Assembly: GCA_020744425.1 (NCBI GenBank)
Contig: JAGMUV010000012.1
Span: 620,001 to 684,000 of the forward strand
Direction of reading: 5' to 3'
DNA from: Dactylonectria macrodidyma
Taxonomy: Eukaryota > Ascomycota > Sordariomycetes > Hypocreales > Nectriaceae
Length of the DNA stretch: 64,000 nucleotides
Position 1 is the stretch's first letter. Every line of letters starts with the position of its first letter. Shown here one piece after another: positions 28,172 through 58,678 of the stretch. The notes beneath the pieces were generated by a model that was not told where the DNA came from, did not search any database, and worked only from the letters and a program-made list of their open reading frames with translations. A program made the position numbers and the translations under genes.

Positions 28172-28559
28172 TTGTATTGTCTAGGATGCCTCCGGCCCCC
28201 TCTTTTTATCCCTTTGCAACAGCTAAGGCAGACTGGCCGTACCGATCCACCTTCTTCTCCACTATTTAATCTCTATTAGAGTAACAGAAGTGATACCATC
28301 ATCAGTGGCGAATAGCGCCTACAGGCTGTAAGTGCAATGTTGCGATCGGTACTCTGGGATAGTGCAGAGACTTCTGTTCTGACTAAATTTTGGTGAGAGA
28401 TGATGTACCTTACCATGTAGCGTATCATAGTAGCTAGAAAACTAGGAAAAGAGGATCGGTACGCCCAGTCTGCCTTAGCTGTTGCAAAGGGATGCAAATT
28501 CGGGTCTTATGCCGCCACGCGAGGGGTCAACCTAACAGATAGTATTGATCTAGGATGCC
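28172..28559. repeat. Fold-back repeat bounded by direct repeats
   Basis: Direct repeats GTATTGTCTAGGATGCC (about 28174-28190) and GTATTGATCTAGGATGCC (about 28542-28559) bound a segment with about 40-bp inverted arms. One arm contains CCTTTGCAACAGCTAAGGCAG (about 28210) and the other CTGCCTTAGCTGTTGCAAAGG (about 28470-28490). The right part also contains TCTTATGCCGCCACGCGAGGGG, which recurs inverted near 38530. It has no coding content. It may be a small non-autonomous element or the relic of a recombination. Confidence 0.5.
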
Positions 28560-28560
28560 C

Positions 28561-28734
28561 TGTCACGAGCGTTTGTCGTGTGTGGCACCTGATTGGGTGT
28601 GTGTATGTTCTTGATTGTGTCAAGTCCCCGCTCTGAGTCCCTGTACACCCTTTATGCTAAAATAGCTAGAAGGATATTGCTATAGCAGGCACACGCCATA
28701 TACACGCCCTGCTACCCAAATACACATCGTGACA
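28561..28734 (-). repeat. Copia 3' LTR
   Basis: Starts TGTCACGA and ends TCGTGACA, an 8-bp inverted pair around the TG...CA ends. It is 98% identical to the LTR at 33751 (three mismatches by eye). The inner side is bordered by the purine tract AAGGGGGTG on the minus strand. Confidence 0.93.
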
Positions 28735-28769
28735 CACCCCCTTAGCCGAGGCCATTACCAAGGACTTGG

Positions 28770-31700
28770 CTACCCTATAAATTGTCTTTTGGGTCTCTGC
28801 CCTCCTTGATATCCGAGTCTTGCCTCCTTATCAGGGCTGTTGCCTTCCTTCTGGCTGCGTGTTTTCGCAATCTGGTCCTTCATAGCTTCCATTCGCTGTT
28901 CCAGGGCAATCTGGTGTGAAATGTCCTCCATTTGAAGCATCTTAATGAATGTTGCATGCCGTTGCTTGGGCAGGGCCTTTGTCATCCCGTCTGCAATCAT
29001 CTTCGATGTTGGGACCCAGCCGAACTCAACTCTCTTCTCCCTGTATTCTTGTCGTAACCAGTGTCGATGAATATCCACATGCCGAAGCTTCGTAGTCAAC
29101 TTGGCTGATTCCTCAGTCAGGAGCCTAATTGTCTGGGCATTATCGCATTCAATATGCAATGGTCCGTCAATCTGAACTTCCAGCTCCTTAAGAATCCTGC
29201 TTGCGAAGATAGCTTCCTTAGCTGTCTGAGACAAAGCTAGCAATTCAGCTTCAGTGCTTGACGTAGTGACTGTGGACTGTTTTGTTGCTTTCCAGGCAAT
29301 TGGTCCTCCAAACAGCATCATCACATAGCCTTGCGAGCTCTTCCTGTCTATTGTATTGTCTGCATAGGAAGCATCGCTTGCACATAGGAAGCTCTTGAGG
29401 AATCTTGTTCCTCCCAGCCTGATTCCCAGTGAACGTGTTCCATACAAATACTGCAAGACTCGGTCTGCGGCCTTATGATGTGTCTGGTCTGGATTCTGAT
29501 TGAACCTCGCTAGCCTTGCGGCTGCGAATGCAACATCGGGTCGTGTTGAGATTGATGCGAACAATATCGATCCGACTTTCTTCAAATATTTCTCGATTGA
29601 ACGCCAGTCGGCTTGGCAGGTTGCTGGTAACAATTCTTCCTCTGTCATCGGAGTCTCGGGAACCTTGGTCTCTAGATCGATATCATACTGGTAAGCAATC
29701 TTATCGATATATGCATCTTGAGTCAGCCAGATAGATCGCTTAGCTCTGTTTCGTATGATGTGAATTCCAAGAAACCACTTCGGTTCTCCCAGCACGGTCA
29801 TGTTATAGGTCTGCTGTAGGCCTTCCATAGCCTTCTTTGCCCTGTCTGCCTTCTCCTTCTGGTATGCCCAGATAAGATCGTCAACAAAGAAGAAGACAAT
29901 CACTCCATCTTTAAGCATCACACAGGGTTCGTCGGGAACAGTCCTGAAGCCGAGGTCTCGGAGGGTTCGTGTCAGGTCTTGTTGCCATAAGAACGGAGAC
30001 CTCCGTAGTCCGTAGAGCGCCTTCTGGAGCTTTAGAACTCTGCCGTACTTTTGGAATCCCGGTGGCATTCTCATGAATACCAGCTCATCTAGCTCGCAGT
30101 GTACGAAAGCATTTACAGCATCCATCTGCACGAGCTCCAGATCGTATTCTGCCGCTATTGCCATAAGCGCCCTGAAAGACATGCTTGCAAGCGTTGTCGC
30201 TCGAGTCGGCAGATCTCCCCTAGCCTGTTGATTGCCGCAGACAACAAGACGGGCTTTGCACTTAACCAGGTATCCATGCTTGTCTGTTTTGTAGGTAAAT
30301 ACCCACATACAGCTTAGCACCTGTTGTCCTTTTGCCTGACGCCATGGCACTTCCACGAACGACTTCATCTGTTGGTGAGATGCCATATGTTCTTCTTGTG
30401 CTTTGCGGAACTGTTCTTTAAACGGGTGGTTGTCGAGATCCCTGAGAGTCTTCGGCTCCTCTGGTAAGTTTCGCTTATGTATCTTCTCCGGCTTGAACTT
30501 CATTCTAGCGACGAAACTCCCATGATAAGCTGTCTCGATTGGAACTGGGACAAAGTCTTCCAAGCAGCTTTCTACGACTGCAATTAGCGGAATATCTGCT
30601 CTCACCCCCTCAGCTCCAGCGACTGGTAAGAAGACTGAAAGCGCTGCATCTTGCTCCTGGTCTGGTTCAGTTGGTGGAGGTGTACATAATGCTTCCTCTA
30701 AAGCTCTTGCTAGTTCGTAGTCTTCTTTGTCCGCTTGGTCGTCCTGATATTCTTCTGGATCATTTTCTGGAACCATTTCTTCCCCGTCGTCACCCTGGTC
30801 TTCTTCATGGTTGCCAGATTCAAAGACTGGCTCATCTTCTTCAAGTACAGCTTGGTTGTTCAGCTGGCTTGGCGGAATAGCGACCTTCTCGACCAGGTCA
30901 TCAACGCTATCAATGAGTTCCTTTTCCGTACATTTGCCGTCAAAGAATGTGTCTTCGTCAAAGATAACGTCTCGAGTTGATATGACTTTTCCTTTGTGCG
31001 GGACCCAAACACGAAAGATGTTTGTCGAGTCATAGCCAACAAGATAGCCGATGTGCGCTCTTGGGTCAAGCTTGCGGAGCTTCTTTCGTTTGAGTTGCGC
31101 TCGTGAAGTCATGGCGTAGGCCCTGCAGCCATATGCCTTCAAGTGCGATAGGTATGGCTGTCTTGAGTAGAACAACTCATAAGGGGTCTTCCACTCATTC
31201 GACTCTCGCGGTGTTCTGTTCTTCAGGTACACGGCTGCGCTGATTATTTCTCTCCAAAGACCATGCGGTATGTTGGCTGTGATTCTCATCACTCGGCTCT
31301 TCTCAATTACCGCACCCCCTGAGCGCTCAGCTCCTCCGTTCTGAGCTTGCGTATTTGGCGCTGATGGTTTCCCAATAATGCCTCTCCACATCATCCAGTA
31401 TTTAAACTTCTTAGTGAAGAGCTCATTGTCTGAGCGAACCACTTTAACCAGATAGCCATAGTGGATCTTCATCCAGTGATAGAAGTGTCTCACTATCTTG
31501 CCGCTCTCTCGTCTGTCATACGTCTTGGTATAGTATGGAAAGACCATACCAGACCAGGCGTCTGTGATAAACATGGCTCGAATAAAGCCCTTCGCATCTT
31601 CATCGATGTCGGTCCAGTCAATCCAAATTTCGTAACATGGCTTGTCTTTTTCTCGGTCTGGTGGCCGTCGAGATATCTGCCGATGTATCTTCCCTTGGCT

Positions 31701-32366
31701 GCAGCCTGGACACTGCGTTGTCTTTGGTCCACGGAGTCGTATCCCTAGGGAATTCTTTCCCAAGTGATGCAATACTAACGGACTTGGATGTCCCATTCGA
31801 AGATGCCATAAGGATCCAATCGCTACTGCTGGTGCCCTTGGATTTCGCGATGTTCTTCGCCTGTATTGCGTGCTAAAGATAGCATCCTCAACGTCGCGCG
31901 AAATCTCTCGATACTGCAGTACGAATTGATTATGCATCTGATGGACGATGCATATGGTTGAGCCGTCCCTTCGGATTAGGAGGTTGTTGATAGTATCCCA
32001 AAAGATTCCGTTTTCTCGAAGCAATTGAAAGGATACTAGGTTCGTGCTGAAATCGGTACAATAGGTTGCGTTCCGTAGGCGCAAAATTCCAACTTTCCCT
32101 TCTGGAAGTGTGACCTCTAGGTCAACTCTTCCAAAACCTAGGATTGGAACTTCTGATGCTCCTGCAATAACTGCCTCTCCGTCTGCTGCCTTACGGAAGG
32201 TCTTAAACCTAGTCAGATCGTTAAAAATATGCAACGTTGTACCAAAATCCAAGATTGTTGATAAACGTAGCGGATACACAGTAGTTGCAGAGGTAAAGGC
32301 TGATCGTAGGTGCGCTGTGTTCGCCGCTCCTATGATCTTCACTCTGGCCTTTCTCTCCTGTAATTG
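28770..32366 (-). CDS. pol: Copia Pol: protease, integrase, RT, RNase H
   Basis: The frame is open directly after the gag UGA (32367-32369) to 28770. The first in-frame start-like codon is GTG at 32342, so translation by readthrough is more likely than a new start. Protease: LDFGTTLHIF. Integrase: HLRMGH...CPGC zinc site, then WIDWTD, RSDNELFTKK and NGGAERSGG for the DDE triad. Reverse transcriptase: KARLVVCGNQQ, QMDAVNAFVHCELDE, and FFVDDLIW for the YxDD box (FVDD). RNase H: CASDASYADN, SSTEAELLAL, and HIECDNAQ. About 1,198 residues with no stops. The integrase-before-RT order defines Pseudoviridae/copia. The product copies genomic RNA into cDNA in virus-like particles and inserts it. Confidence 0.95.
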   Translation of the reverse strand, partial: QLQERKARVKIIGAANTAHLRSAFTSATTVYPLRLSTILDFGTTLHIFNDLTRFKTFRKAADGEAVIAGASEVPILGFGRVDLEVTLPEGKVGILRLRNATYCTDFSTNLVSFQLLRENGIFWDTINNLLIRRDGSTICIVHQMHNQFVLQYREISRDVEDAIFSTQYRRRTSRNPRAPAVAIGSLWHLRMGHPSPLVLHHLGKNSLGIRLRGPKTTQCPGCSQGKIHRQISRRPPDREKDKPCYEIWIDWTDIDEDAKGFIRAMFITDAWSGMVFPYYTKTYDRRESGKIVRHFYHWMKIHYGYLVKVVRSDNELFTKKFKYWMMWRGIIGKPSAPNTQAQNGGAERSGGAVIEKSRVMRITANIPHGLWREIISAAVYLKNRTPRESNEWKTPYELFYSRQPYLSHLKAYGCRAYAMTSRAQLKRKKLRKLDPRAHIGYLVGYDSTNIFRVWVPHKGKVISTRDVIFDEDTFFDGKCTEKELIDSVDDLVEKVAIPPSQLNNQAVLEEDEPVFESGNHEEDQGDDGEEMVPENDPEEYQDDQADKEDYELARALEEALCTPPPTEPDQEQDAALSVFLPVAGAEGVRADIPLIAVVESCLEDFVPVPIETAYHGSFVARMKFKPEKIHKRNLPEEPKTLRDLDNHPFKEQFRKAQEEHMASHQQMKSFVEVPWRQAKGQQVLSCMWVFTYKTDKHGYLVKCKARLVVCGNQQARGDLPTRATTLASMSFRALMAIAAEYDLELVQMDAVNAFVHCELDELVFMRMPPGFQKYGRVLKLQKALYGLRRSPFLWQQDLTRTLRDLGFRTVPDEPCVMLKDGVIVFFFVDDLIWAYQKEKADRAKKAMEGLQQTYNMTVLGEPKWFLGIHIIRNRAKRSIWLTQDAYIDKIAYQYDIDLETKVPETPMTEEELLPATCQADWRSIEKYLKKVGSILFASISTRPDVAFAAARLARFNQNPDQTHHKAADRVLQYLYGTRSLGIRLGGTRFLKSFLCASDASYADNTIDRKSSQGYVMMLFGGPIAWKATKQSTVTTSSTEAELLALSQTAKEAIFASRILKELEVQIDGPLHIECDNAQTIRLLTEESAKLTTKLRHVDIHRHWLRQEYREKRVEFGWVPTSKMIADGMTKALPKQRHATFIKMLQMEDISHQIALEQRMEAMKDQIAKTRSQKEGNSPDKEARLGYQGGQRPKRQFIG

Positions 32367-32369
32367 TCA
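32361..32369 (-). promoter_or_regulatory. Leaky stop UGA-CAA-UUA between gag and pol
   Basis: The minus strand reads AAC TGA CAA TTA CAG. The six bases after the stop fit the CAR-YYA readthrough context known from tobamoviruses, and pol lies in the same frame. This suggests that a fraction of ribosomes produce Gag-Pol. A plain nonsense mutation cannot be excluded from one copy. Confidence 0.6.
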
Positions 32370-33590
32370 GTTCCCTTTCTGTTCTTGCAAAGCATCAACC
32401 CTTCTCTGCAGCTCGTGGTCGTCTTCCAGCGCCTTCTTAGCCCTTCGCATACGACGATCGTTGCGAGGCATGCCCTCCGGTCTCTTATCTTCGAACACAC
32501 ACCAGCAGTCAGATAGGTCATGCCCTCTCATACCGCAGGCTGGGCACGTAAGTGCTGGCCTCTTTCCAGAGCGTCCTCCGGAGCCAGACTTCGTCCTCTT
32601 CCCACCCTTTGGCGTGGATGCCTCCTCACTGTGGTCACTCTCCTCGTTGCCTCCCTCTGTGTGGAACGCCCCGCCCCTCACGGTGTTACCACTCGTGGGC
32701 CTCTTGCGGGATGCCCATTCACGCATTGTCGAGGCAACCTCTTGAGGTGTCCAAACCTTTGAGCCATTGGGAGCAGGTCGCTGTACGCCCGATGCAATCA
32801 GGTCAATACCTCCTGGTCTAGATTGGGAATCTGATTCTAAGGTTTCACTCCCACTGCTTGTGTGGAGTCGTCGCTGCTCAGCCGCTTCTGCTTGGGCAGT
32901 CTGGTGGGCGAGCGCATCTTGGAGGCGTCTTCTCTGAAGAACTGCTTCGGCATCTAGAATCTTGGCCCCCTCCGTGAAAGCTGTTGCATAGCTTTGATGG
33001 ATTGGTTCAATTAGGTCAGCGAACTCTCGAAGCCATTGACCGGTCTCAGTCTCTGCTAGGTGATACTTCTTTGCCTTGATCATCATCGATTCCCACGATT
33101 CAAGCCATTGTGGGAAGGCTTTCTGATTCTTAAAGCCTTTCATCACGGCAATATATTCGTCTTTCACCTTAGCCATCATGAAGCCTTCTGATGGAGCAGC
33201 AGAGCTCTTGAGCAGCTGCATCCACTCTCGCAGTGTGTCTTTTCTGTCGAGCGGTTGCCTGAACTTTGTCGAAACTGTCTCCAGGATAGTATCGTATACC
33301 GTATTGATCTCTGTCTCCTGCTTTCCGAAGTCCCGCTTCCTGACTTCCCATTGCCTAAACACAGCATCATACGCTCGCTGCTGCGACGGTGATAGCTGGG
33401 TATAGTCTGTAGCAGTAGTGTTAAAGTCGCTATACTGAGGCTCTCTTGGTTCTTGCAAGAGTTCCCCAATAGGGTGATCAGGGTGCATGTAAGACCATAT
33501 CTTCCTTGGAGTCTTGGCTGACAGGGACTGAATCCACGCATCCCATTTTTCCTTCCCAGTCAAGATCACTCTCTGGTCTTTTGACGTCAT
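32367..33590 (-). CDS. gag: Copia Gag nucleocapsid, 407 aa
   Basis: Starts at ATG 33590 (MTSKDQRVILTGKEKWDAW) and ends in LQEQKGN-UGA. The N-terminal part resembles the UBN2/retrotrans_gag fold of copia elements (W..W..., long helices). Near residue 350 is one CCHC zinc knuckle, CPACGMRGHDLSDC, which binds the element RNA. The Ser/Gly-rich linker before it is typical. The stop is followed in the same frame by CAA UUA and pol, see the separate feature. It forms the shell of the virus-like particle. Confidence 0.9.
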   Translation of the reverse strand: MTSKDQRVILTGKEKWDAWIQSLSAKTPRKIWSYMHPDHPIGELLQEPREPQYSDFNTTATDYTQLSPSQQRAYDAVFRQWEVRKRDFGKQETEINTVYDTILETVSTKFRQPLDRKDTLREWMQLLKSSAAPSEGFMMAKVKDEYIAVMKGFKNQKAFPQWLESWESMMIKAKKYHLAETETGQWLREFADLIEPIHQSYATAFTEGAKILDAEAVLQRRRLQDALAHQTAQAEAAEQRRLHTSSGSETLESDSQSRPGGIDLIASGVQRPAPNGSKVWTPQEVASTMREWASRKRPTSGNTVRGGAFHTEGGNEESDHSEEASTPKGGKRTKSGSGGRSGKRPALTCPACGMRGHDLSDCWCVFEDKRPEGMPRNDRRMRRAKKALEDDHELQRRVDALQEQKGN

Positions 33591-33739
33591 ATTCGGATCG
33601 GCCGGAACGGACGGTATCGATCGATTTTGACCGCGTCACGACGTATTCTATCTGAACAACGATGGATATCGGCCCTTCGAGGTCTGGCTCGATGCAAATC
33701 GTGTTGTTGCTGTCTTTTTCAATGGAATTGTCGCGAACC

Positions 33740-33750
33740 GGGCTCATAAC
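33740..33750 (-). promoter_or_regulatory. Primer-binding site for an initiator-tRNA half
   Basis: Directly inside the 5' LTR the minus strand reads GTTATGAGCCC, complementary to GGGCTCATAAC, the anticodon stem-loop of initiator tRNA-Met up to about nucleotide 39. Drosophila copia uses exactly such a cleaved 5' half of tRNA-iMet as primer, rather than the tRNA 3' end. Confidence 0.7.
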
Positions 33751-33924
33751 TGTCACGAGCTTTTGTCGTGTGAGGCACCTGATTGGGTGTGTGTATGTTC
33801 TTGATTGTGTCAAGTCCCCGCTCTGAGTCCCTGTACACCCTTTATGCTAAAATAGCTAGAAGGATATTGCTATAGCAGTCACACGCCATATACACGCCCT
33901 GCTACCCAAATACACATCGTGACA
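33751..33924 (-). repeat. Copia 5' LTR
   Basis: 174 bp, TGTCACGA...TCGTGACA, acting as promoter side of the minus-strand element. Three differences from the 3' LTR. Confidence 0.93.
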
Positions 33925-34230
33925 GTTTCAAGGCAGTATGCTCTTAAACAAGATAAGCTTACGGAGGCGTTTTAGGCGACATCATGCGAGCGTCTCAATT
34001 CAATAGCGGGGCGCGTTACCACTCCTACTTAGGGGTTAGCCCATAAAACGGTTGTATGATCTCCTTGGATACTGTCATATCATGGCTGTATACTTGGTAC
34101 GTACCAGTCGTCGCGCCTTTCACTGTCAACCCCGCCTTCCCACCATTTCAACGTTGTCTTTTGTTCTCACACGCTGAATAGACTTATCTCATCGGCGTCT
34201 AATAACCACAACTGCTGGATTGAGCTCACC
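33925..34230. other. Upstream region of the beta-tubulin gene
   Basis: The copia element ends 306 bp before the tubulin ATG. No clear TATA box is seen; pyrimidine-rich tracts near 34140-34190 suit a fungal transcription start. The LTR may influence this promoter. Confidence 0.4.
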
Positions 34231-35976
34231 ATGCGTGAGATTGTGAGTCCGCTTCCAATCCGCCTTGGAGGCTCTACAAATTAATTTTGAGCTCCCTCTT
34301 CTCTATAGGTGCATCTCCAAGTTGGCCAATGTGTGAGTATCACACCTTCTTGTTGCATGTGTTTCTTCTCTCATGCCATGTGTTGACCTCAACAGGGCAA
34401 CCAAGTCGGCTCTGCCTTCTGGCAGACCATTTCGGGCGAGCATGGTCTGGATAGCAGTGGCGTGTAGGCGACCCATTCGAATCGCCACCCAACATCCCTC
34501 CTTCTCACGCATCAATCTAGGTATAATGGAACCTCCGATCTCCAGCTCGCGCGCATGAACGTCTATTTCAACGAGGTGCGCGATATTGTGTGACCCATGC
34601 CAAACTATCCTCGGTCTCTGATCGAGCTCGCATAGACATCCAGCAACAAGTACGTGCCGCGCGCCGTGCTCGTTGACCTAGAACCTGGCACGATGGACGC
34701 GGTGCGCTCCGGTCCGTTTGGCCAGCTTTTCCGCCCCGACAACTTCGTCTTTGGACACTCGAGCGCCGGCAATAACTGGGCTAAGGGCCACTACACCGAG
34801 GGCGCCGAGTTGGTTGATCAGGTGCTGGACGTGGTCCGTCGCGAGGCCGAAGGCTGCGACTCGCTCCAAGGCTTTCAAATCACCCACTCGCTCGGCGGCG
34901 GTACGGGCTCCGGCATGGGCACGCTGCTGATTTCCAAGATTCGTGAGGGTGAGATTGATATTACTGATGTGATGCACATTTCGATGCATTGTCTCTCACG
35001 GTTCTAACAGCCTATTTAGAGTTCCCGGATCGTATGATGGCTACCTTCAGTGTAGTACCGTCTCCCAAGGTATCCGATACCGTCGTGGAGCCGTATAATG
35101 CCACGCTCTCGGTCCACCAGCTGGTTGACAACTCAGATTCGACTTTCTGTATCGATAACGAGGCTCTGTATGATATTTGCAAACGTACCTTGAAGCTGTC
35201 AAACCCTTCGTATGGCGACCTTAACCACCTAGTGTCAACCGTCATGTCCGGCGTGTCAACTTCGCTGCGCTTCCCCGGACAGCTAAACTCTGACCTTCGC
35301 AAGATGGCCGTTAACATGGTAGGAAGACTCCTCTCATCCAGACCTATATCGCCGTCATCGAAGAACGTTAGGGCTGAGCATTTCCCCTCTTCTCATCTAG
35401 GTTCCCTTCCCCCGCCTGCACTTCTTCATGGTTGGCTTTGCGCCCCTCACTAGCCGTGGCTCGCACTCGTTCAGCGCAGTCTCTGTCCCAGAGCTTACCC
35501 AGCAGTTGTTTGACCCCAAGAACATGATGACCGGCTCTGATTTCCGAAACGGTCGCTATCTGACCTGCTCTGTCATCTTTCGCGGAAAGGTATCTGCGAA
35601 GGAGGTGGAGGATCAGATGCACAAGGTTCAGCAGAAGAACTCGGGTTACTTTGTTGAATGGATTCCTAATAACGTGCAGACGACTCTATGCTCTGTCCCC
35701 CCGCAGGGGCTGGAGATGTCGTCCACTTTTGTCGGCAACTCGACCGCCATCCAGCAGATCTTTAAGCGCGTCGGCGAGCAGTTCACCGCTATGTTCCGCC
35801 GCAAGGCCTTCTTGCACTGGTATACTGGAGAGGGCATGGACGAGATGGAATTTACGGAAGCCGAGTCCAATATGAATGACCTGGTGTCGGAGTACCAGCA
35901 GTATCAGGACGCAGGCGTCGACGACGACGACGTCTATAGCGAGGAGGTTTATGGCGAGGAGGAAATCCCCCAATAG
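34231..35976 (+). CDS. tubC: Divergent beta-tubulin (second-paralogue type), 448 aa
   Basis: Seven exons: 34231-34242, 34309-34332, 34396-34463, 34521-34575, 34636-34948, 35020-35318 and 35401-35976. All introns are GT-AG and total 449 codons. The product starts [17 protein letters not shown], with the MREI tetrapeptide that guides beta-tubulin mRNA autoregulation. It has the GTP loop [10 protein letters not shown] at about 140-149 and an acidic tail ending YGEEEIPQ. It polymerises with alpha-tubulin into microtubules. Two substitutions stand out: Ser at 198 (SDSTF; normally Glu) and Ser at 239 (STSLRFPG; normally Cys). Both sites affect binding of benzimidazole or colchicine-site drugs. His6, Phe167, Phe200 and Leu240 are unchanged. 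It differs from the main fungal beta-tubulin at many positions, so a tubC-like paralogue is likely; the symbol is tentative. Confidence 0.92.
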
Positions 35977-38023: not shown

Positions 38024-38312
38024 GCCGTACGGATCACGTGTTATGTTGATAAGATCTGCGCGAGGTTGAAAATAGCGAGTTTGTAAATGGCAGGATAATG
38101 GAAAATAAAACCACTACCAGAGAGGATGAGAGGGAAATCTTTGCAAGAGAAAGTGGGCATGGGCGTAGCAACTTTTGGCTGTGGCAGCGCGTCGATCCAC
38201 ATTGCCTGGCTTAAATCAGGTTATCCCGCCACCCACTACTGCCTTTCAACCAACGGGTGGGCGTTAAACCCGCCAGGGGGCAACCCATGACTTTAGACCC
38301 CTGTGCAAGTCG

Positions 38313-38487
38313 TGTTACGAGCTCTTATTGTGTGAGGCATCTGATTGGGTGTGTGTATGTTCTTTCTTGCATCAAGTCCCCGCTCTGAGTCCCTGTACAT
38401 CCTTTATGCTAAAGTAGCTAGAAGGATATTGCTATGGCCGTCACACGCCATGTACACGCCCTGCTACCCAAAATACACATCGTGACA
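38313..38487. repeat. Copia solo LTR with 5-bp target duplication
   Basis: 175 bp similar to the copia LTRs but more diverged (for example TGTTACGAGCTC at the start and CTTTCTTGCATCAAG inside). It is flanked by AGTCG on both sides (38308-38312 and 38488-38492). This is the usual product of LTR-LTR recombination after an older insertion. Confidence 0.9.
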
Positions 38488-39108: not shown

Positions 39109-41879
39109 CAGTGCTGCATAGACACGCTATGAAACTGAAACTGGGGTGAGTTTCAGTTTCATGAAACCGGACGCCAGTGTAGTTTCAGTTTCATATGAAA
39201 CCGGTTTCAGTTTCATATCAATCAATATCTAATTCCTTTGTTTTCTTCCCCCTCTCTTTAGCAAGCTCGGACCCGATATACACCTTACCACTAGGCACCT
39301 CAAAGATGTCTAGCATTGCCTACCTACCTATGCTACCAATTCGCTAGCCTCGCCATCGCTTTCTTCCCCCCTTGCCCATCTCTATATCTTCTTGGAGTAT
39401 CCTTACAGCCGCGTCGATATCATCCGCTCCCCTAAACACCCCTGCAAGAAGCGGCCTGCTTTTCCCCTTTGGAACACTTATCCAGCTTTTAATGCACTCA
39501 CATGCCTCTACCATTTTGGCAGACATGCTACTTCTATCCCATGTAACCTGCCGTCTTGCGCCTGAGAAAATTCGCTCTGCTTCCGTAGACATCGGAGGGA
39601 TGCAGAATATGTCAATGGCCATACGGCAGAGGAGGGGAAAATTCTCTCGCTGGGTCGGTTCAAGCCACCACTGCAAGGCCGTGTGTTGTCCAATCCCAAC
39701 TTGTGAGCCCTGCGAAGTATCGTCAAAACCTGGCCATTAGGTAGAAGGCTTCAAATTACTTACATAAATAAAGCGGTCGAATTCATCCTTCACCTCGCTC
39801 GCTGTGCTGTACACCTTCTGCCTCCAGCGATCGAACTCGTCGAGTTCTTGCCCTTTCTCCTGTTGTTGATCTTGGAGCTGGTAGCTCTTGTACTCTGTGG
39901 ACCAAATCTTTCTGACAGATTTCACGGCATTGCTAACCCAGGCTGGGTTTCTCTTCCACTGCTCACTCAGATAGCTCTTTCGGAGTGCTGGGTGGAGGAG
40001 AATACCGGCCACGTACACGGGGGCCTGTTCGGTAAGCTGGTAATACTTCTCGAACTTTAGCCAAGCCACGTGAAAGCGGGCGTAGAAGCGTGGGTTACTG
40101 AAAGCCTTGTCTTTAGCCTGCGTGAAGTGATGATGGAGGAAATCCATATGAGATAGAACTTCATCGAGTGTGTTCTCCCGGCCTTGGCGTACCGAGATCT
40201 GGTGAAATGGTTGTAGAAACGCATGGATATCTCGGAGCTCGTTCCAGTCGTTGTGGTCCAGTGCATCTTTCTCGATCTTGGCATGATTTTCTTGAATCCA
40301 ATCCATGAGCTTTGCCCGCCTCTCAATTGCCACGTCAATAAGACGAAACCATGAATTCCAGCGTGTATCATTGTCCCTCGGCAAGGCCCTGCCAATCTCG
40401 GCCTTGAAGTCGTTGCAGATGCTGGTAGAGCTCCTTGAATACATGCACAAGTTGTGGAGCTTCCCCAGAACATTAAACTCCCGCCATTCCTCGGTGGCTT
40501 GTGCCTTCGTAATGACGCCCCCTTCTTCTTTTTCGGATAGCCTGCACAGTCGCTCATACGCCTCATCAATCCCCTCTTGCTCATCCTCCTGGATCTTCTT
40601 TGCCTTACCGGTACTCCGAAAGAGGAAGGCTTGAACGATGAGGTTCATGATGTGGCCACTGCAGCGTAGTCGCCTGGCAACCGGATCTAAACCATCAATC
40701 TCTTTTGCGATATCGTCAAGCATAGTATCGTTGGCATCGTGATTATCCATCGTAAAGTAGCCAACCTTTCCGCCGAGGTCGTACTCTTCGACAACATCCA
40801 GGAAAGCCTTGGCTTGCAATTTCCCGTTGTGGCTTCCTTTGAACTCGCGCAGTGACAATAACGCTTGAGCGACTTCTCTCGTCTCCGCATCTACAAAATG
40901 GACCACGATTGCCTGGTATGCCGCCTTCTGTTCCGATGAGGTCCACATGTCAATGGTGAAGTGGACCATGGATGAGAGAGAATTGTGAAGCTTCTTGACG
41001 AGGCCTTGTTTGTGTTGAGCGAAAGGCTTTTCGAGAAGCTTCGGCACCGCACTGCGGCTGCGTAGGAGGACGTCTCGGGCCATATAGTTACAGGAGAGTA
41101 TAACAGCATGAAACTCGGGGTATTCGATGAATGTGTGGGCGATATTGCGAACCGCAAGAAGCCTGGCGAGTGCTTCCTCGAATGCAGGAATATTAATAGC
41201 GTTTGCCAAATATTTTTCCTCATTAAGGTCTCGATTGGCTTGACGTTCCTCCTGGCTTCCAAACCAATCCGTAATGGTGCCATGTTGCTGCTTCTTCAGA
41301 TCCGACCTTTCTACATGCTCGATAACCCGGATGCCATGAAAGTCCCGCAGGTGCTTGCGGGCTCGGCTCAGGTTCGTCGTTACCGAATTAGGCTTTTTCG
41401 TGGAGTCGCAGTGCTTGCAGTACCAAATTTCGTGGTATGAGGTATCGCGAGCTTTCTCTCCTCTCTCTTCATAAGGGTCACGCGCCTCGTTCCAAGTGCT
41501 TTTGTTTGTACGGCCTTTGGCGCGCTTGCCAGCCCGATCAGAGGGAGAACGATGCAATGCGCGCTTGGCGGGAACGGGAGAGTCAGGCGAAGCAGGTCCC
41601 AAGACCTCGTCAGAAGGCTCCGATAACAAGGGAGCGGGCGAAGCTGATGACATATTTACTGTTAGCAAGTTTCTAACTGCGTTGAAGGCATTTGGTTTGC
41701 GAAATTTTCTTGGTTAAGTACTAAGACATTTGGGTCTCATCGGGCGTATATGAAACATATGAAACCGACTGAAACATATGAAACTGGGAGAGTTACAGTT
41801 TCGTATGAAACCGGGTCCAGGGACTGTTTCAGTTTCATATGAAACAGTATGAAACAACACGCGTGGCTATGCAGCACTG
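39109..41879 (-). mobile_element. hAT transposon, complete-looking
   Basis: The 13-bp ends CAGTGCTGCATAG / CTATGCAGCACTG are of hAT type. The subterminal regions are packed with GAAACTGAAACTGG and TTTCATATGAAAC motifs in both orientations (39120-39220 and 41745-41860), likely transposase-binding sites. The interior has one full transposase gene. The 8-bp flanks (TTCGAGGT, GCCCCAGG) do not match, so no target duplication is visible. Confidence 0.85.
39344..41668 (-). CDS. hAT transposase, 756 aa
   Basis: Exon 1 is 41668-39764 and exon 2 is 39709-39344. The 54-nt intron (39710-39763, GTAAGT...CGCAG) gives 757 codons. A BED zinc finger lies near residues 80-115 (WYCKHCDSTKK...ARKHLRDFH). The RNase H-like catalytic core includes VHFTIDMWTS (first Asp), GYFTMDNHDAND (second Asp) and RLRCSGHIMNL. 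The C-terminus carries the hAT dimerisation domain: FPLLCRMAIDIFCIPPM, then STEAERIFSGARR. All expected parts are present and no stop is seen, so it may be active. A Met five codons later (MSSAS) is an equally good start. Confidence 0.92.
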
Positions 41880-49717: not shown

Positions 49718-52700
49718 TTACCCATCCAACCAGCTTAGAGCGTCTCCGACAGTCTTCTCACTGAGCACCTCAAGCCGAGCCTCCGCAGCTGCCATGTCGG
49801 TGGGTATCTTATTGCCAACTACATCCCTCTCCCGCACCTTCGATACGAGCATGATGCCGTCGAGCGATGGGCAGCGTGACAGCTGCACATATAGGCTGTA
49901 TGGGTCGCACTGGCTGGGCAACCCCTCACCATCGATGTTAGTTGTCCTGGTCCCCCGCAGTTCCAGTGCCACCCGGCTCAATGTTCTCCCCTGGACCTTG
50001 TAGTCGGTGCACGCGAAGGCCGGTGTGCACGGCAGGCCCTTCCGAGTGACGTCGTGCTGCTGCCACGGCCGTTTCCGCTGGCATTCCACCTTGATGCTCA
50101 TTGGCGTCAGCAGGATCGTCCCGGGCGGCATGCCGACGAAGTGGAAGTCCCGAGTCGTCTCGGACGCCAGGAGGATCCCCGCCGGCGGGCCGAAGTGGAG
50201 TATCGTATCAGCGGAGATCTGGTGTCCCGGGTATGCCTTGTCGACGATGACGTCCAAGGCCGTGTAGCTGGCCCCGTTGACGAGCTTCAGGCCCTGGTGC
50301 GTGTTATTGTTGACGACTATGGGCATGCCGGGAACGAACATGAAGACGGCCGGCACTGGGATGGCGCTGTCGTCGCCGTGGTTGAGCATCATGAGGGCCT
50401 CCTCCTCCGTCGGCTGGCCGTCCTTCCACTTGTGGTCGGATATGAAGATGCGCAGTGTTGCTTTATGTTGCCGTTGGAAGGCCAGAGTGGCTTCCATGTT
50501 CAGGTTCCACCGGTTTCTGTTGAGTGGTGTCACCACCGTGATGCCCGACTCCCACGGGATCCGCCTGCCTTCCTGATAGCAGCGAGCGTTGAGCAGGTCG
50601 ACATCCGACTGGTCCTGGATTCCGAGCCGAATCCGCGCCAACAGCCTTCGCAGTTCCGGGTCGCCGGCGGCGCGGACCTGCTCATCCAGCATGACGACGG
50701 TGGTGAATTTCTTCCATAGGGCATGTGCCTTGTCGTGCTGGTGTCTGTGCTCCACCTTGAAGGAATCCTGTTCGAGCCACGAGATGGCTGAACTGGGGAG
50801 CAGGATTGACCTCTCCTGCACGGGACGGAACTGGTGAAAATCGCCGCAGAAGAGGACTATGGGGATACCTCCAAAATCCTCTGGGGACCCTCGAAGCCTG
50901 CACAGCTGCTCGTTCACCATGTAGAGAGTGCGCGCTCCGAGCATGCTGACCTCGTCGACGATCAGCAGGTACTTTTCCCGCCAATCCATTCGCGCTGGGC
51001 CATTGACGTAGCGATCGGATGAGTTGGAGGACCCGATCCCGTCGCTGCCTTTGTCTAAGCTGGCGCTCATTCGCGATGCGTCCTTGGAGAACTTGCAGGC
51101 CGAGTGGATTGTGATGCCGTTGATGCGAGCCGCTGCAGTCCCCGAGGTCGCTGTGGCCAGCAGGCGATTTAGGATCCCCTTGCCTGCAAAGAGCTCGACG
51201 AGCGCCTCGATGACCCGCGATTTTCCCGTTCCGCCTTCGCCGCCGATGAACTGGCATAGCTGGGGAGCAGGTTGGCCGTGCGTGCTCTCGCCACTATGTG
51301 CTAGGTCAAGCTGGCGGCAGACTAGCAAAAAGGCGACCGACTGCTTTGTATTGAGTGTGAAGCGCTCTGTGTCGCATATCAAGCCCCGGCCCCACTAGAG
51401 CAGCTGCCGTCGAAATGAGGCAAGGATCACGATCATCGTGAACAAGTTCACGATGAGAGTGAACGACCATAATTAGCGCCAAGCAGCAGGCTGCTGCCTA
51501 AACAGCCAACGCTTTCATTTGTGTATAAAAGAGCTGCACGGCTCAGTGCATCTTGTCATTGAGTTCTTGCTCCTTAGATAATTCTCATCAATTGACCGAT
51601 GCCAACAATGATCCCTGTGGAACCAAGTGTCTGACACTCTGCTAGTTGCCTCCCCGCCGCCAGGAAGGATGTCGATGGCCCGAACCGGACGCCTACCGTT
51701 GGGCCGTGATCTAGCATGCTCTCCTCAGTGTCTGCAGCGGTCAGCTGGACGTCTTGCTCTCCGAACCCGCTCAGTACAGCGTCTACGGCTGCGTCGCGAC
51801 GCGTTGCGTTTCTGTTGCTCAGACCCTGGATCCCCTGGATCATCTTCTCTGTCTCTCTCGAAGCGCTTGTCTGCTGTGACTTGATAGACTTCAGCAGCCT
51901 CTGTGCTGGGACCTCGGCCCCGGTGAACGGTCCTCCCGGCAGAGACACGGTTCTTACGCCCCGTTCGGCTGCTATCTGGGCACGCAGCTCGGCCGTTGAG
52001 CCCAAAGCGGCGTACTGGAATCGGCAGAGCTTCTGTGTCATCTCCGAGAGCTCCTTCGAGCCGGCCATGATCTGATTTGCATCGCCGGCGCTCCTCAAGA
52101 CATCGATCAGTCGCGTGGCACTCCCGATGTTATCACAGCGGTACGCGGCTCGTGCTTCTTCGTCTCTGTCGCTCACGCGTCCATCACCATCTCCTGACTC
52201 CATAACACCGATCGTGCGTTCGTCATCTCCGGAACACGCAGCCCACTGTTTGGCATCGCGCTTTGCATCTTCCGCTGATCGCCTGAGCAGTTGGATGTTG
52301 CCGAGTATAAATAGGAGCCTCCGGCTCAGCGCCGCCTTCTGCCTCGTCCATATATCGTTGATGTCACCCGAAGACTCGGATAGGAAGCACTCCCATGGCA
52401 CGAACAGAGCTAAGTGTTGCACAGCAGCCCTAGAATAGCAGAGTCAGCTGAGGAGGAGGAGGAGGAGGAGGAGTGAGGTTATTTGAATTTTGAGGTTCAA
52501 ATGGTGTAGGTACGCTGTACGAACCTCCGGTGGCATGGCCCATCAACGTCATCCTGAGAGAAGTCCATGCTTAGGTATCCGTCCAGACAGACCACAGCAT
52601 GCTTGCCTGGCCGGCGCAGACTCTGCACCCATTTGTCCGAGAACGGCGCAGCGTCTCGGAAAGGTATCTCACCCCATGCGGCGGCGGATGCTCCTGCATT

Positions 52701-55700
52701 GGCCCTGCGCTTCAGCGTCACGAGCGACATGTAGTCGTACAGGCACAGGCCGCGGAGCATCTCTCCGCGATAAGGGTATGCCTCAAAGTAGGATATTCTC
52801 TGACCTGCCTGCTCCACGAGCACGGCGTCGTTCATTGGTTCGCCGTCCGCAGCCTCCTCGCCGCTCGCATGGCGCAGGTGATGCCATCGTCGGAAAACGT
52901 GCCAGTATAGCACGGATACGTTCGCGAACGTCCACGCGGCATTGCCGGAGAAGTCGGTTTGGTATCCAAGCAGATGCGCGGCGACCTCGACCTGTGACAG
53001 AGGTCGCTCTGTGAACACCCGGTTGGCCACCTTCATCAGGAACTGTCTGGCCACGCTCCCCGAATCCGTCGCATGATCTTGCCCATGCTCGCCGCCCAGC
53101 GCATGCAGCATCTCGGTTGCGGCCGCTACCCGCTTCCACACCGGATCTTCAACTTTGGTCGCGTAATTCGTCAAGTAGTAGACGAGCGCCATGGTCTTGC
53201 GCTGCGTTGCGATGAATGAGATGTCATGATTGTGCCGGAGCCCTACGGCAATTGCCTTGTTCCACCGGTTCACCATGCTGTGCGTGCGTCGGATCCGCAA
53301 CACTCCGTCCGGGTCGAATGCCGTCTTCTCGACCAACTTCCACGGAGCCTTAAAGCGGCAGAGGTCTCTTTTTCCTCCGCGCTTTCCCAACGAGTACTTC
53401 ACGCACGTCGGGCTGTGCGTATGGATCTGTGTTGCTCCGGCGCAGAAGTTAGCCTCTTCGTCAAAGGACGCAGCGAACTGTTGACTATCCTGCACCAGTC
53501 GTGATATGTCTGACGTTACCGATCTGTCTGCTCGAACGGCGTAGAAAGCCTCCTGATCGAGATCCTGCTTGTTCACATTGCGAAACCGTTAGCTTAGGGG
53601 GGAGACTATCTTCGCTAGAAGGGGGGCTGGGGGCCGCGCTCGGCCGTTACTGTAATGATGGCGAGAACGTACCTCGGAGAAGACACTATCCACATACTCG
53701 ACGATACGGTCACGATACGAGGCTCCCTCCTCGCCTCGCACGTCCGCCAGAACCGAACTCAGTTGCATGTTTCCTTGCAGCCACAGCAGCCCGTGGACGT
53801 GGAGCGCCCCGCGCTCGTTGGTCTCGACGGCCCCGAAATACTGGCTGACGCGGCCAAAGACCGACTCCTCTCCTACCTTGACGTAGTGCTCGAAGAACAG
53901 TGAGATTTCTCTGTGGAAAAAGATGGCCGAGCTCACCGGGTCGGAGATGGCCAGTCGCGCCCGCTTGTAAGCCATGTCCAAGCTTCTCAAGAAAGCCTCA
54001 GCCCCTTCTGGGTCGTGGGTTCGGTATGCAGCCAGTCGTAGCTTGACCGGGCTGGTTATATCGTTCGGGTTGAGCGTGAACCAGATGGCGGGGATGCCGT
54101 ACCGGATGATGAGAGACCTGATTTTGCGTCGCAGGCTGAGGCGATGCGCCCTCGACATCGGCTGCCGGAAGCCGTATAGCGAGAGGCTTTTGAGCAGCTC
54201 CTTGATGCCCTCATCCGCGGTCTGACCGGAAAGCTCGAGCTCACGCTGAGCCAGCTCCAACCTCTCCCGGCCCAAGGAGCGCACCATACGTTCCACGGCG
54301 GGAAAATCTTTCCGCGACACACTCAGCATGCTCACCCGGCGATTCCTCGACCTCACGCCCAAGTTGAAAACGAGGAAGGCGAAGACGTGGTGGGTTGCAA
54401 AGCGGCCGCCATGGCGCCTCAGTACCGCCTCAGCCCATGCAGTGAGGCTCATGTTCCGTGATGACAGGAGACTCCTCGCAGACGCCTCAGCGCCTTCCTC
54501 GATGCCGGCCTCTGCCACGCCTCCGGCGATGATGGTGCTCTCCTCTGCAAGCCGGGGGCCGCCTGTGCCAAATGGGAACAGGCTCGGGAACGTCTTTGCA
54601 AAGAAGAAGGGGTCGGATGAGTCGGCGAAGTCGTCGCCCCGAGACACAGAAATATATGGCTCCAGGCCAAGACCTTGCCGTACAGATGCCGATCCTGCCC
54701 AGCCCCCCGTTCTCCTCTGCTCCCCGGCTGCGTGCCCTGCTTCTTGTTCTTCGTCCTCGCCCACAGCTTCCCAGGCAAATCGTAGCCTTTCCACGTCCGC
54801 AACATCCGGCTGGGCGTCGAGCGCAAACATCCCGGATGAACTGACTTCGTGGATAACCGCCTCCGGGCTTTCGAGGTGAGCGCCCCGACGGTCTCCGTTC
54901 GCTGCGCCGTTGTCTCCGTCACTGGACAGTGCTTCATTGCTTCGGCTCGCTTCCTGATCACGACACTCGGCCTCTTCTTGTTGCTCCCGCCTCAGCATGG
55001 CTATGACTTCGTCGATGTCCACAGCGTCCTCATCATCTATCCCGCGCTCCGCAGGCGGCACGATCTGCGCTGTGCGCACCTTTTCCCAGGCAGACGGTTC
55101 GTTACGCTCCATGCGCTGAAGGATCTGCGACGGCACCCCGTGAGGCGGAGCTCCCCAGCTGTCCATCTCGGCCCCGCTGATTTCAATGTCCCGATAGTGC
55201 GGGTTATTTCTCTGCAGCCAAACCAGCGCCCTCTCGACAACCCGACGCCGCACGGACAGAAGTCTCGCCAAATCGCTCGGTCCCGGCTTCTGCGTACCGT
55301 GCCACGCCACATGTATCTCGTCCATGACCTTGACGAGGGGATGAGGCAGGACCTTGGTGACCAGCTCCTGGACATTGTTCGGGAACACCGTGATGTGTCC
55401 CTTGACGTGTTTGGGGTATGTGACACCCTGACGCTGCCCATCCACGACGTTATACTTCGTGATGAAGCCGTAGCATGAATTGAGGCTGATGAGTTTCTCC
55501 TCAACCGGGGTCAGGCCTTTAAGTTCCTCTGGGAACATGTGCTCACATCCCAAGCGAACGTGCAGCCGGGCAGTGGTTGACAGACAACCTCTCATGAGGT
55601 AACTTATGCATTCCGGGCAGGCCAAAACTTCGCTGCCGACGGGGAAGCATTTGCGGCAGGAAAGGGGCGAGGAGGGATTGTCGCTGTTCTCCGTGAGCCT

Positions 55701-57538
55701 GGACAGCCATCGGTCCCATTTTATACTTTCCAACTCTCCTTTCCCGCGCTTCCGATAGCACACCATGCATATCCACAAGGGCAAAGTCTCGGCGTCATGA
55801 AAAGCTTTGTAGAACGCCTGCGCCGTGGACCAGCGTTCTACATAAGTAAAGTAAGTAAATTTTTCAGGCTTACTTACTTACTTACGAACGAAATCCTTAC
55901 TTACTTGCCACCCCGAACTATTTACTTACTTTACTCACTTACTTGCAAGTAAAGTGGATCCATGTACAATAGCCAATCACCGTAGAGCGTGGTATCCCGA
56001 TCCACCCTGGGCTTTGCCCAGGAAATCTTTCTGAGGCATTGCAATGCCTCCGCAGTAACCCCGTGCAAGGCGTTCCTTTGTGAAGATATGGTGAGCTTTG
56101 CGGCACTGAAAACACGGTCATTTTCGCTGGGCATGTCTGAGATAGAAAGTAAGTCCATAGCCATATTGAACAACCGGAGGAACTGAGTCTTGCGGCCAAG
56201 TCACCATTGGAGCAATTACGACCCAAAACATTCATTAACTTACTGCTGTAAAACCACCAGGGCGTGATGGGCGGGGCTTGCGGTTTCGCCCCACTTACTT
56301 AGATCTTACTTACTTACTTGGTTCTTGGAGGCTTTACTTACTTACTTGGCTGCCGGGCTTACTTACTTACTTATTACTTACTTACTTGGTTACTTACTTG
56401 CAATTACTTTACTTATGTAGAACGCTGCCGTGGACACCTTCCTCTCGTGCGGGACTGGCGTACACCACTCCCTGTTGTGGGACAGCCGCTCCTTCTCGGC
56501 GAATTCTTCATCTAGGCAGCGCAACACGCTGGCAAGATCCTCTCTCCTCTCTTCTTCCGTTCTTTCCTTGCGGACGCCTGACCGAACCCGTTTCACTGAT
56601 CGCCCTTCTCCGGCGGCCTGATTCGTCGTCGTCCTCCTCCTTCGCCGGGATGCATTCGAGGTCGATGTTATCTCTAACTCTGGGACGGGTCCTGGCACTG
56701 TCACGACCTCCCGTGACGCCGGTGACGTCGCCGGGGCGATGTGTCTCCATGCCTGTTGTTCTGGCGCTCCTCCCAGCCGCGCACCGCGCCGCCTAGACCC
56801 AAACGGCGCTGGGGGAGTATCAGCTGGTCCCCGATGCAGGCCTGCTCTCTCCGGGTCAAGCTCCCTAGGTCGTAGGGTCCGCAGGGCGCCTCCCCCAGCA
56901 ATGAATGCCTGAGTTCGGATACTCGGTTCTCCAGTGCGTCGGTTAGAATGGTTCCCCTTCTCGTCCGCCGGGTCGAGATTCTTCTGCGTGCCATCACGGC
57001 CAGGTTCAGCGGGTGCGTCAGCCTCTTGGATTCGTTGAGTCGGCCCAGGGCTTGGGTAAACAAGCTCTCCAGTTTCGGGGAACCCGGTGGTTGCCTTTGG
57101 CTGGATTGGCCGCAGCGGAGCCCTGGTTCGGTCGACGCCGCCATCACGTTTTCCATCACGTCCTCTATCACGTCCTCCATCAGTCCTCGCTGTTGAACGA
57201 CCTCGCCTGATCCTGGTGCGACGGACGAGACCGGGGATGACCTGCCGTTTGTGTCCGTGGGACCACTCCTCGCGGCAATCACCCAATCCCGCCCCTGCTC
57301 CTCCTCCTTCATCTTCACCTATCCTCCGCGCTTCCTTTGGCAAAATAGACCGAAATGTCGAGGCTGAGGCAGCCTTTGCTGTGTGAGGCTCCTGTTGCCT
57401 CTCATCATCCTCGGCTGCATTGCCTGATTCGATACGATGCCTCTCGTCTGCCTCCTCAGCCGAGCTGCGGACGTTGACCCCATCGGGCTCTGCAGGTGTG
57501 AGAACCCCGGTCTCTCGGTCTGCATCATGTCCCATCAT
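49718..57538 (-). pseudogene. Helitron RepHel transposase, split by a hAT insertion
   Basis: Coding segments on the minus strand: 57538-56428, 55822-53673, 53564-52525, 52429-51597 and 51366-49718. Removing the 597-bp hAT element with one target copy and introns of 108, 95 and 230 nt gives 6,783 nt, exactly 2,261 codons without a stop. Order: Arg-rich disordered N-terminus; CxxC zinc pairs (CMVC, CRKC, CPEC); Helitron_like_N with FPSLFPFGTGG; the HUH motif ALHVHGLLW (about residue 1040). Then comes the two-tyrosine motif YLTNYATK (about 1214) and a Pif1-type SF1 helicase with Walker A GGEGGTGKS, LLIVDEVSM, LFCGDFHQ and YVQLSRC. Rep nicks and rejoins single strands; the helicase drives rolling-circle transfer. 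As it stands the hAT insertion breaks the gene. The 52,524 donor and the 230-nt intron are the least certain joints. Confidence 0.88.
55831..56427 (-). mobile_element. Internally deleted hAT element in the Helitron gene
   Basis: Terminal repeats CAGCGTTCTACATAAGTAAAG on both ends, 8-bp target duplication CCGTGGAC (55823-55830 and 56428-56435). The subterminal regions are rich in CTTACTTACTTAC. The interior retains the end of a hAT transposase on the minus strand (56173-55931: MAMDLLSISDMPSENDRVFS, then LHGVTAEALQCLRKISW), the dimerisation domain, while the catalytic core is gone. Non-autonomous. It differs from the hAT family at 39109. Confidence 0.92.
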
Positions 57539-58678
57539 TGCGTTCCCTGCTCTTCCAATTCCAATCCTTTCAGCGAGGCGAGAAGGGACCCCTTACTAGC
57601 TGTGACCTCACAATTGCCTGAGTCTGATGCTCTCTGCTTGTGTCCTATGGTCCTGCTACGAATATGTGCGCTGTGTTTTACTCTATCCTCCTCTATTAGC
57701 ATTCAGACCTCTATTTATTCTCACTCCTATGTCATGCTTGACCTGCCTACCTTCTGACCTGAGACACACTATCGCATCCATCTTCTAGACCCCGCCTTCT
57801 TCTATCATCTGCTCCTCTCTCCAGGATTCTAACTGTCTGCACCTATGCATGCGGGGATATCTCCGCCAGTTACTCACCGTCCTTAAGCGTCTCCAGACTA
57901 CTCTCGGGACAGTTTGTGTTGCTGTTGAAGCTGCACCCGCGACCGAGCACCAGGCCCGTATCCAATAGCGAATGTCCATCAGAGACAAAAGCTCACTGAC
58001 TGGCTCGCCTAGGTGATGTCACATCCAACAGACTACAAGGTCATACATTTAATCAAACCGGAAGGGAGGTCTTCCAGCTGTTCAGACACGCTGTTCAGAC
58101 CGGCAATCCAGAAGTCCGGACTTCCAGTCAGAGGTTGGTGTCATCTATGTCTCCCAAAAAGCAAGTTCTTCAACACAACGGCCCTGGAGGCCAAATTCAT
58201 CTTATGTATAAAAAACCGACCCTTCTTCACTCACTAGATAGAAAAATCAAGAGCTTTTATCCCGATGATCCAGATCCATCAGAAATTGTAACAGGTGAAC
58301 TTTCTTTTTGTCCTCGCCGTGTAGATTTCGGTTTCCCTCCAGCTCTCCTGCTAGATTAATTTTTCCCCTCGTTTTAACCTCCTCCTCGACGACTAACCGC
58401 AACTTTAACTTTGCTTTAACTCCTGCCCGCTATGCCGACATCGTCAGTCGTCCCCGTCTTCTCTTGTCTTCTTCTTTTCCCCTGAACTTTGACTTACACC
58501 GACTCTCTTCTTCTCCTTGCACTTATCGACAACCCAACCCACGTCTCTCGATGCCTGGCAAGGTAGACTCGTGAATAACCAGCCAGTATCTGTGAGAACG
58601 TCTGCGCCTATTACATCGACCGATGGACCGCCGCATGCTCGCAAGCCGCTGGCAAGCCAGAGGAGCGCTGGCGGCGAC
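57539..58678. other. Divergent region between RepHel and its plus-strand neighbour
   Basis: About 1.1 kb between two genes that point away from each other. Pyrimidine-rich stretches before 58679 (CTTCTTCTCC, CTCCTCCTCG) look like fungal leader sequence. No clear TATA box. Open frames at 57988-57785 and 58013-58237 have no domain. Confidence 0.4.

Follow-up and report, generated by a model that had tools for sequence, protein, structure and literature searches.

In two described fungal Ty1/copia (Copia) retrotransposons, gag and pol share one reading frame and are separated by a UGA codon. Tca2 of Candida albicans, in which Pol is made from a gag-pol RNA, has a purine-rich spacer and a potential pseudoknot (PMC2194720), and VdLTRE5, which like the element described here comes from a filamentous ascomycete (Verticillium dahliae), has 159-bp long terminal repeats (LTRs) flanking its gag-UGA-pol frame (PMC3441728). 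The readthrough hexamer CARYYA was sought after the VdLTRE5 stop by its authors and not found, and Tca2 is reported in the same paper to lack it (PMC3441728). Here we describe a Copia element in a 64,000-nucleotide stretch of the Dactylonectria macrodidyma genome (assembly GCA_020744425.1, contig JAGMUV010000012.1, positions 620,001 to 684,000; hereafter the window), whose gag ends in a UGA directly followed by CAA UUA and an in-frame pol. We refer to this element and its relatives in the genome as family A; it is likened to Tca2 and VdLTRE5 by their published descriptions.

An identical CAA UUA follows the stop in the tobamovirus type I signal, UAG-CAR-YYA (PMC3542737), from which family A differs in having UGA for the usual natural UAG and a retrotransposon Gag-Pol for a viral replicase. 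Murine leukaemia virus makes its Gag-Pol by readthrough of a gag-pol UAG followed by a spacer and a pseudoknot, as described in PMC2194720, whereas nested folding at the family A stop is unexceptional. In the fission yeasts, the Ty3/gypsy elements Tj1, Tcry1 and Tosmo1-3 carry an in-frame gag-pol UGA in a known leaky context, GAA-UGA-CU (PMC10085805), and stop suppression is described for SIRE1, where it serves an envelope-like protein (PMC2829016). The main text of a survey of Copia diversity in filamentous ascomycetes contains none of the terms 'stop codon', 'readthrough' or 'UGA' (term search of PMC5445492), and no fungal Copia element with CARYYA appeared among the titles and abstract openings that were listed, an earlier mention in surveys of gag-pol recoding being possible.

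Gag and pol share one frame across UGA-CAA-UUA

On the minus strand of the window the junction reads GGG AAC, TGA, CAA TTA, CAG GAG (Table 1). The original prediction, made from the sequence letters, had placed about 1,190 open codons of copia pol in the gag frame directly after UGA and CAA UUA. This was confirmed: pol has 1198 codons, and its product carries, from N to C terminus, the Pfam domains Pol_BBD (residues 37-119), gag_pre-integrs (183-225; 28.2 bits, just below the cut-off of 28.4), SH3_retrovirus (399-474) and RVT_2 (677-895). The RVT_2 reverse transcriptase lies downstream of the integrase-side domains, which is the Ty1/copia order; the integrase core gave no Pfam match in the window Pol protein. 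The gag product had no significant match in a Pfam search, and a zinc-knuckle-like motif, CPxCxxxGHxxxxC, was recognized by eye close to its end.

The layout, with one frame and a UGA between gag and pol, is that of Tca2 and VdLTRE5. The six bases directly after the in-frame stop fit CARYYA and a conserved coding region lies beyond them, as in type I signals, whereas the codon after the stop is CAA and not the CUA or CGG that together with a 3' stem-loop marks type II. CARYYA follows 7 of the 5120 stop triplets in the window (both strands, any frame) and 4 of its 2304 TGA triplets, the gag stop being included in both counts, which corresponds to a chance of about 0.2% for any given stop there. 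Frameshifting was rejected, since the two genes lie in one frame and no single shift could join them.

The stop is shared by recently mobile copies

The genome (77.3 Mb, 77 contigs) was searched with a query spanning the junction, and all copy counts are lower bounds. At least 18 places matched the junction region, namely 15 close copies, the window element included, and the more diverged L023, L024 and L025. AAC-UGA-CAA-UUA was present in 15/15 close copies. UGA-CAA-UUA was also kept in L023 (84.5% identical), while L024 (75%) has UGA-UAA-UUA and L025 (72%) has UAA-UAA-UUA; the last two junctions fit C>T and G>A decay of UGA-CAA-UUA, amid heavy decay of the same kind. A sense codon replaces the gag stop in none of these 18 copies, so that the stop is not a private mutation of one copy, the outcome that the original prediction had named as its refutation. 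A pattern search with a 21-base stretch and up to three mismatches returned the 15 exact junctions, L023 at two mismatches and an additional place at three, the last of which is probably a chance match because a reversed control of the pattern gave three matches. L023, L024 and L025 have 34-43 stops in gag and are riddled with C>T and G>A changes, the mark of repeat-induced point mutation (RIP).

Retention of UGA-CAA-UUA in other copies, the condition set in the original prediction, holds among the close copies, but it is weak evidence when taken alone, because more than half of all in-frame nine-base windows (485 of 904) show no variation among 13 copies; of 2721 columns, 198 vary. More telling is what these copies have done. 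Perfect 5-bp target duplications flank 12 of the 15 close copies (the exceptions being L014, L015 and the window copy), and the two LTRs are identical in 10; these counts are our reading with a 174-bp LTR, base 175 being either the first internal or the first flanking base. The TG...CA ends of the LTRs and the 5-bp duplications are those of Ty1/copia elements. Because of these duplications and identical LTRs, elements carrying the stop must have transposed recently. Both gag and pol are open in 10/15 close copies.

The window copy itself is unusual. At codons 40-42 of pol (32241-32249) it shares with its near-identical sister L009 the sequence LDFG in place of the protease-type motif LDSG that begins at codon 40 in 13/15 close copies, and the motif is probably damaged (DFG for DSG). 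It has no 5-bp target duplication (28555-28560, 33925-33930) and its LTRs differ at 3/175 positions, yet L009, to which it is 99.9% identical, has a target duplication and identical LTRs; the window copy is possibly a recombinant.

Pol is constrained directly after the stop

The ratio of nonsynonymous to synonymous differences (pN/pS) was calculated without L009, which nearly duplicates the window copy. In gag the ratio was 0.15 among nine intact copies and 0.21 among all 14; in the first 1497 nucleotides of pol it was 0.12 among the nine and 0.15 among 13, the rearranged L012 being dropped. The first AUG in the pol frame is codon 144 in 14/15 close copies and codon 94 in L015. For the 143 pol codons before it, pN/pS was 0.13-0.14 when codons with a single difference were counted, and on the same counting the first 30 codons after the stop showed zero nonsynonymous differences among 13 copies; with all differences included, pol codons 1-121 gave 0.26 (14 copies). 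Purifying selection acts on pol upstream of its first AUG. Initiation at an AUG after the stop would lose the protease, because the motif, at codon 40, precedes the first AUG, at codon 144.

Other Copia families of the same genome carry a gag-pol stop followed by CU

Further families were found by a gag search, an RVT_2 search (among the matches listed) and junction pieces, and a chosen part of their copies was read at the junction; they were grouped without a tree, and independent origins are not claimed. Three of them, C, D and F, have an in-frame gag-pol stop followed by CU in every copy read. Within family C the junction is UGA-CUC-UAU in group C1 (3 copies: L056, L057, L069), UAA-CUA-UAU in C2 (5 copies: L058, L059, L064, L065, L066) and UGA-CUA-UAC in C3 (1 copy: L068). 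It is UGA-CUC-AGA in family D (3 copies: L060-L062) and UGA-CUA-GCC in family F (2 copies: L074, L076), so that CUA occurs in C2, C3 and F and CUC in C1 and D. The base after each gag-pol stop read is C, except in the decayed relics L024 and L025, against a background of 24% C after TGA in the window (556/2304). Over roughly the first 200 residues of Pol, families C and D are 34-36% identical to family A; their first AUG lies at pol codon 34-81 and their protease motif at 28-29. In the distant family F, both copies read show UGA-CUA-G, which is known as a strong context for readthrough of UGA.

Each of the five C2 copies is defective elsewhere in gag or pol, with an extra gag stop (L064, L066) or a pol stop or shortened pol frame (L058, L059, L065, L066). 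That their UAA arose by decay of UGA is only a guess, and a weak one, because most UGA copies of family C carry defects too: three of four have a shortened or interrupted frame and L056 alone shows none. Single-frame families are also present, namely family B (at least 24 matches with a 1657-residue frame), a 1756-residue family and frames of about 1400-1440 residues. No junction could be read in L063 and L067, two members of the series L056-L069, or in the gag relics L042 and L044, which match only as far as codons 299 and 301. L070 belongs to another family and showed no gag-pol stop within the 1201 bases read. L071 has a stop inside gag and L072 one in the pre-integrase region, both apparently private; L073, a close match to L072, is open at that position. 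L075 looks frame-shifted, and L081 begins past the junction. Among the families read in this genome, the CAR-YYA hexamer was seen in family A only.

Many protein relatives end or are predicted to begin near the same junction

Six Gag homologues were found, and five of them end at the same alignment position as family A Gag, including P0121 from Ilyonectria destructans (407 residues, 95% identity) and P0123 from Purpureocillium lilacinum (405 residues, 61% identity); P0122, the only exception, carries a frameshift close to its end. Because of these shared ends, the gag stop is old. The Pol search matched 657 proteins. Of the 120 best matches listed, 113 have at least 1000 residues, and in 57 of these 113 a protease motif was recognized by a regular expression; 52 of the 57 start no more than 28 residues upstream of the motif and five carry Gag. 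Many Pol relatives thus seem to have a gag-pol stop or frame break, a reading that is subject to gene callers picking starts and to short contigs. The fused database models P0022 and P0118 are short at the junction, suggesting that the predictor skipped a stop there, whereas the fused P0013 and P0015, which run on smoothly, may be true single-frame elements. No relatives with DNA were found in a viral contig collection. Among the matches listed, the nearest named relatives belong to Ilyonectria, Purpureocillium, Metarhizium and Hirsutella, all of which we take to be Hypocreales.

Readthrough and its alternatives

The shared frame, a stop that is both old and mobile, constraint on pol directly after it and the documented leakiness of such contexts lead us to favor translational readthrough at UGA-CAA-UUA, which probably yields Gag-Pol in family A. 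Gag would be produced by normal termination at the UGA, while a minority of ribosomes would decode it with a near-cognate tRNA and continue into pol; CAA UUA, as a type I context, would weaken termination, and the rate of readthrough would then set the Gag:Pol ratio. CARYYA is described as stimulating readthrough of UGA as well, its natural cases being mostly UAG (PMC3542737), and in an OPRL1 reporter it gave about 15% readthrough with similar values for UGA and UAG (PMC4132726). It acts in Saccharomyces cerevisiae (PMC3609751), and according to PMC2194720 the tobacco mosaic virus signal is active in human cells as well. In Ustilago maydis, UGA-CU has been described as a core leaky context (PMC4207609); families C, D and F share it with the fission-yeast elements (PMC10085805), whereas family A does not. 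As for the proposal of readthrough in a plant-virus-like context, recent transposition, selection before the first AUG and the families with CU after the stop all support its first part, but the hexamer is not a rule in this genome, because it was seen in one family only.

Several points weigh against readthrough by this signal. Conservation among the close copies was considered as the main proof and rejected as under-powered. The CAR-YYA at the junction is known from this genome alone, its relatives being read as proteins only; the P0122 protein permits only NGA-YAA-YCA, which includes UGA-CAA-UCA without proving it. In Tca2, with the same layout but reportedly no CARYYA, readthrough in yeast was not seen with 300 nucleotides of the junction (PMC2194720). 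No exceptional nested RNA fold was detected near the family A stop (z-scores of -0.37 and -0.53); for six stretches, two from A and one each from C1, C3, D and F, z ranged from -1.50 to -0.08, with nested pairing only considered. Such a result fits a type I signal, because these are described as stimulated by the six bases (PMC3542737). Finally, 19 combinations of donor, acceptor and branch site keep the family A frame open across the junction.

These combinations are the ground for the main rival, regulated splicing, in which unspliced RNA would give Gag and inefficient removal of the UGA would give Gag-Pol, the reverse of the arrangement in Drosophila copia. The UGA sits in CTGAC-AATTACAG, which resembles a fungal branch point and 3' splice site; AACTGAC followed by TTACAG/G is a fair branch point and acceptor, and one candidate intron of 123 nucleotides runs GTATGC...CTGAC...ATAG. 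The branch-like CTGAC follows partly from the stop itself, however, and this intron would delete Pol-like codons past the stop (VKIIGAAN against RKIIKGEAN in P0005, aligned by eye). Reverse transcription of spliced RNA would be expected now and then, yet the would-be intron is present in all 18 junction-bearing copies, which were retrieved with the junction-spanning query, and a separate gag search revealed no close copy with a matching gap. A scan of the other families gave no splice candidates for one D copy and the two F copies, and one or two for three C copies; it covered about 310-350 nucleotides of gag for C and D as against 600 for family A. For Tca2, splicing was considered and judged unlikely (PMC2194720). 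Splicing is not the simplest account of all the families, and we regard it as improbable.

Separate synthesis of Pol, through a promoter at the junction, internal ribosome entry, re-initiation or initiation at a non-AUG codon past the stop, appears less probable still. Tca2 is described as having a weak junction promoter (PMC2194720), and the many relatives predicted as Pol-only, starting just upstream of the protease motif, would suit such a scheme. Against it stand the absence of a pol-frame AUG before codon 144 in all but one close copy, with the protease motif upstream of it, the same order of motif and first AUG in families C and D, and the purifying selection on the region before the AUG.

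That the family is dead and the stop a nonsense mutation, degenerate or produced by RIP, which lies before CAAUUA by chance, is the least credible reading and is largely refuted: among 13 close copies, 129 of the 201 departures from the commonest base are C>T or G>A, three relics are heavily mutated in this way and the window copy is itself defective, but the stop is common to all close copies, including those with both frames open and recent insertions with identical LTRs, and five of six Gag homologues end at it.

Features of the element and its surroundings

The sequence directly adjoining the 5' LTR is presumably the complement of the initiator tRNA-Met anticodon arm, which makes it a candidate for half-tRNA priming as in copia and Ty5. 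A third LTR-like copy, 82% identical to the element LTR, lies at 38312-38486 and is apparently a solo LTR. Less than 1 kb from the 5' LTR are gene pieces (34636-35976) that we take to be beta-tubulin-like. An open frame of 658 residues at 39737-41713 presumably resembles a hAT transposase with a BED-type zinc finger, and a series of minus-strand frames at 49718-57592 is, we assume, Helitron-like (PIF1-like helicase and replication parts).

Table 1 Features of the family A element in the window
Feature	Position	Strand	Basis or remark
Ty1/copia LTR retrotransposon	28561-33924	minus	174-bp LTRs and open reading frames
5' LTR, 174 bp, TGTCAC...GTGACA	33751..33924	minus	direct repeat, 98% identity with 3' LTR
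Candidate primer-binding site, GTTATGAGCCC	33740..33750	minus	directly adjoins 5' LTR
gag open reading frame, 407 codons	32370..33590	minus	ATG at 33590, ends at UGA
In-frame UGA, gag stop	32367..32369	minus	sequence reading
CAAUUA hexamer, fits CAR-YYA	32361..32366	minus	directly 3' of gag stop
pol open reading frame, 1198 codons, gag frame	28773..32366	minus	open reading frame and Pfam
3' LTR, 174 bp	28561..28734	minus	direct repeat of 5' LTR

Implications

Fungal Copia elements with a UGA between gag and pol were already known from Tca2 and VdLTRE5; what appears to be new is a type I context on UGA in a recently mobile family, and family A would be the first fungal Copia reported to carry the tobamovirus type I hexamer, here on that codon. 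Gene predictors may hide stops of this kind, as P0022 and P0118 suggest. Reporter work on Tca2 found no local signal and left open how the gag stop is passed in fungal Copia (PMC2194720); the compact hexamer of family A, known to act in yeast (PMC3609751), makes this question directly testable. We give about even weight to the broader idea that Gag-Pol synthesis through a leaky stop is a common and old mode in the Copia elements of filamentous ascomycetes, with elements swapping between leaky contexts. In this one genome the contexts are UGA-CAA-UUA in family A, UGA-CUC and UGA- or UAA-CUA in C, UGA-CUC in D and UGA-CUA-G in F, and families that differ in this way within a single host provide a natural series on how much readthrough a retrotransposon needs.

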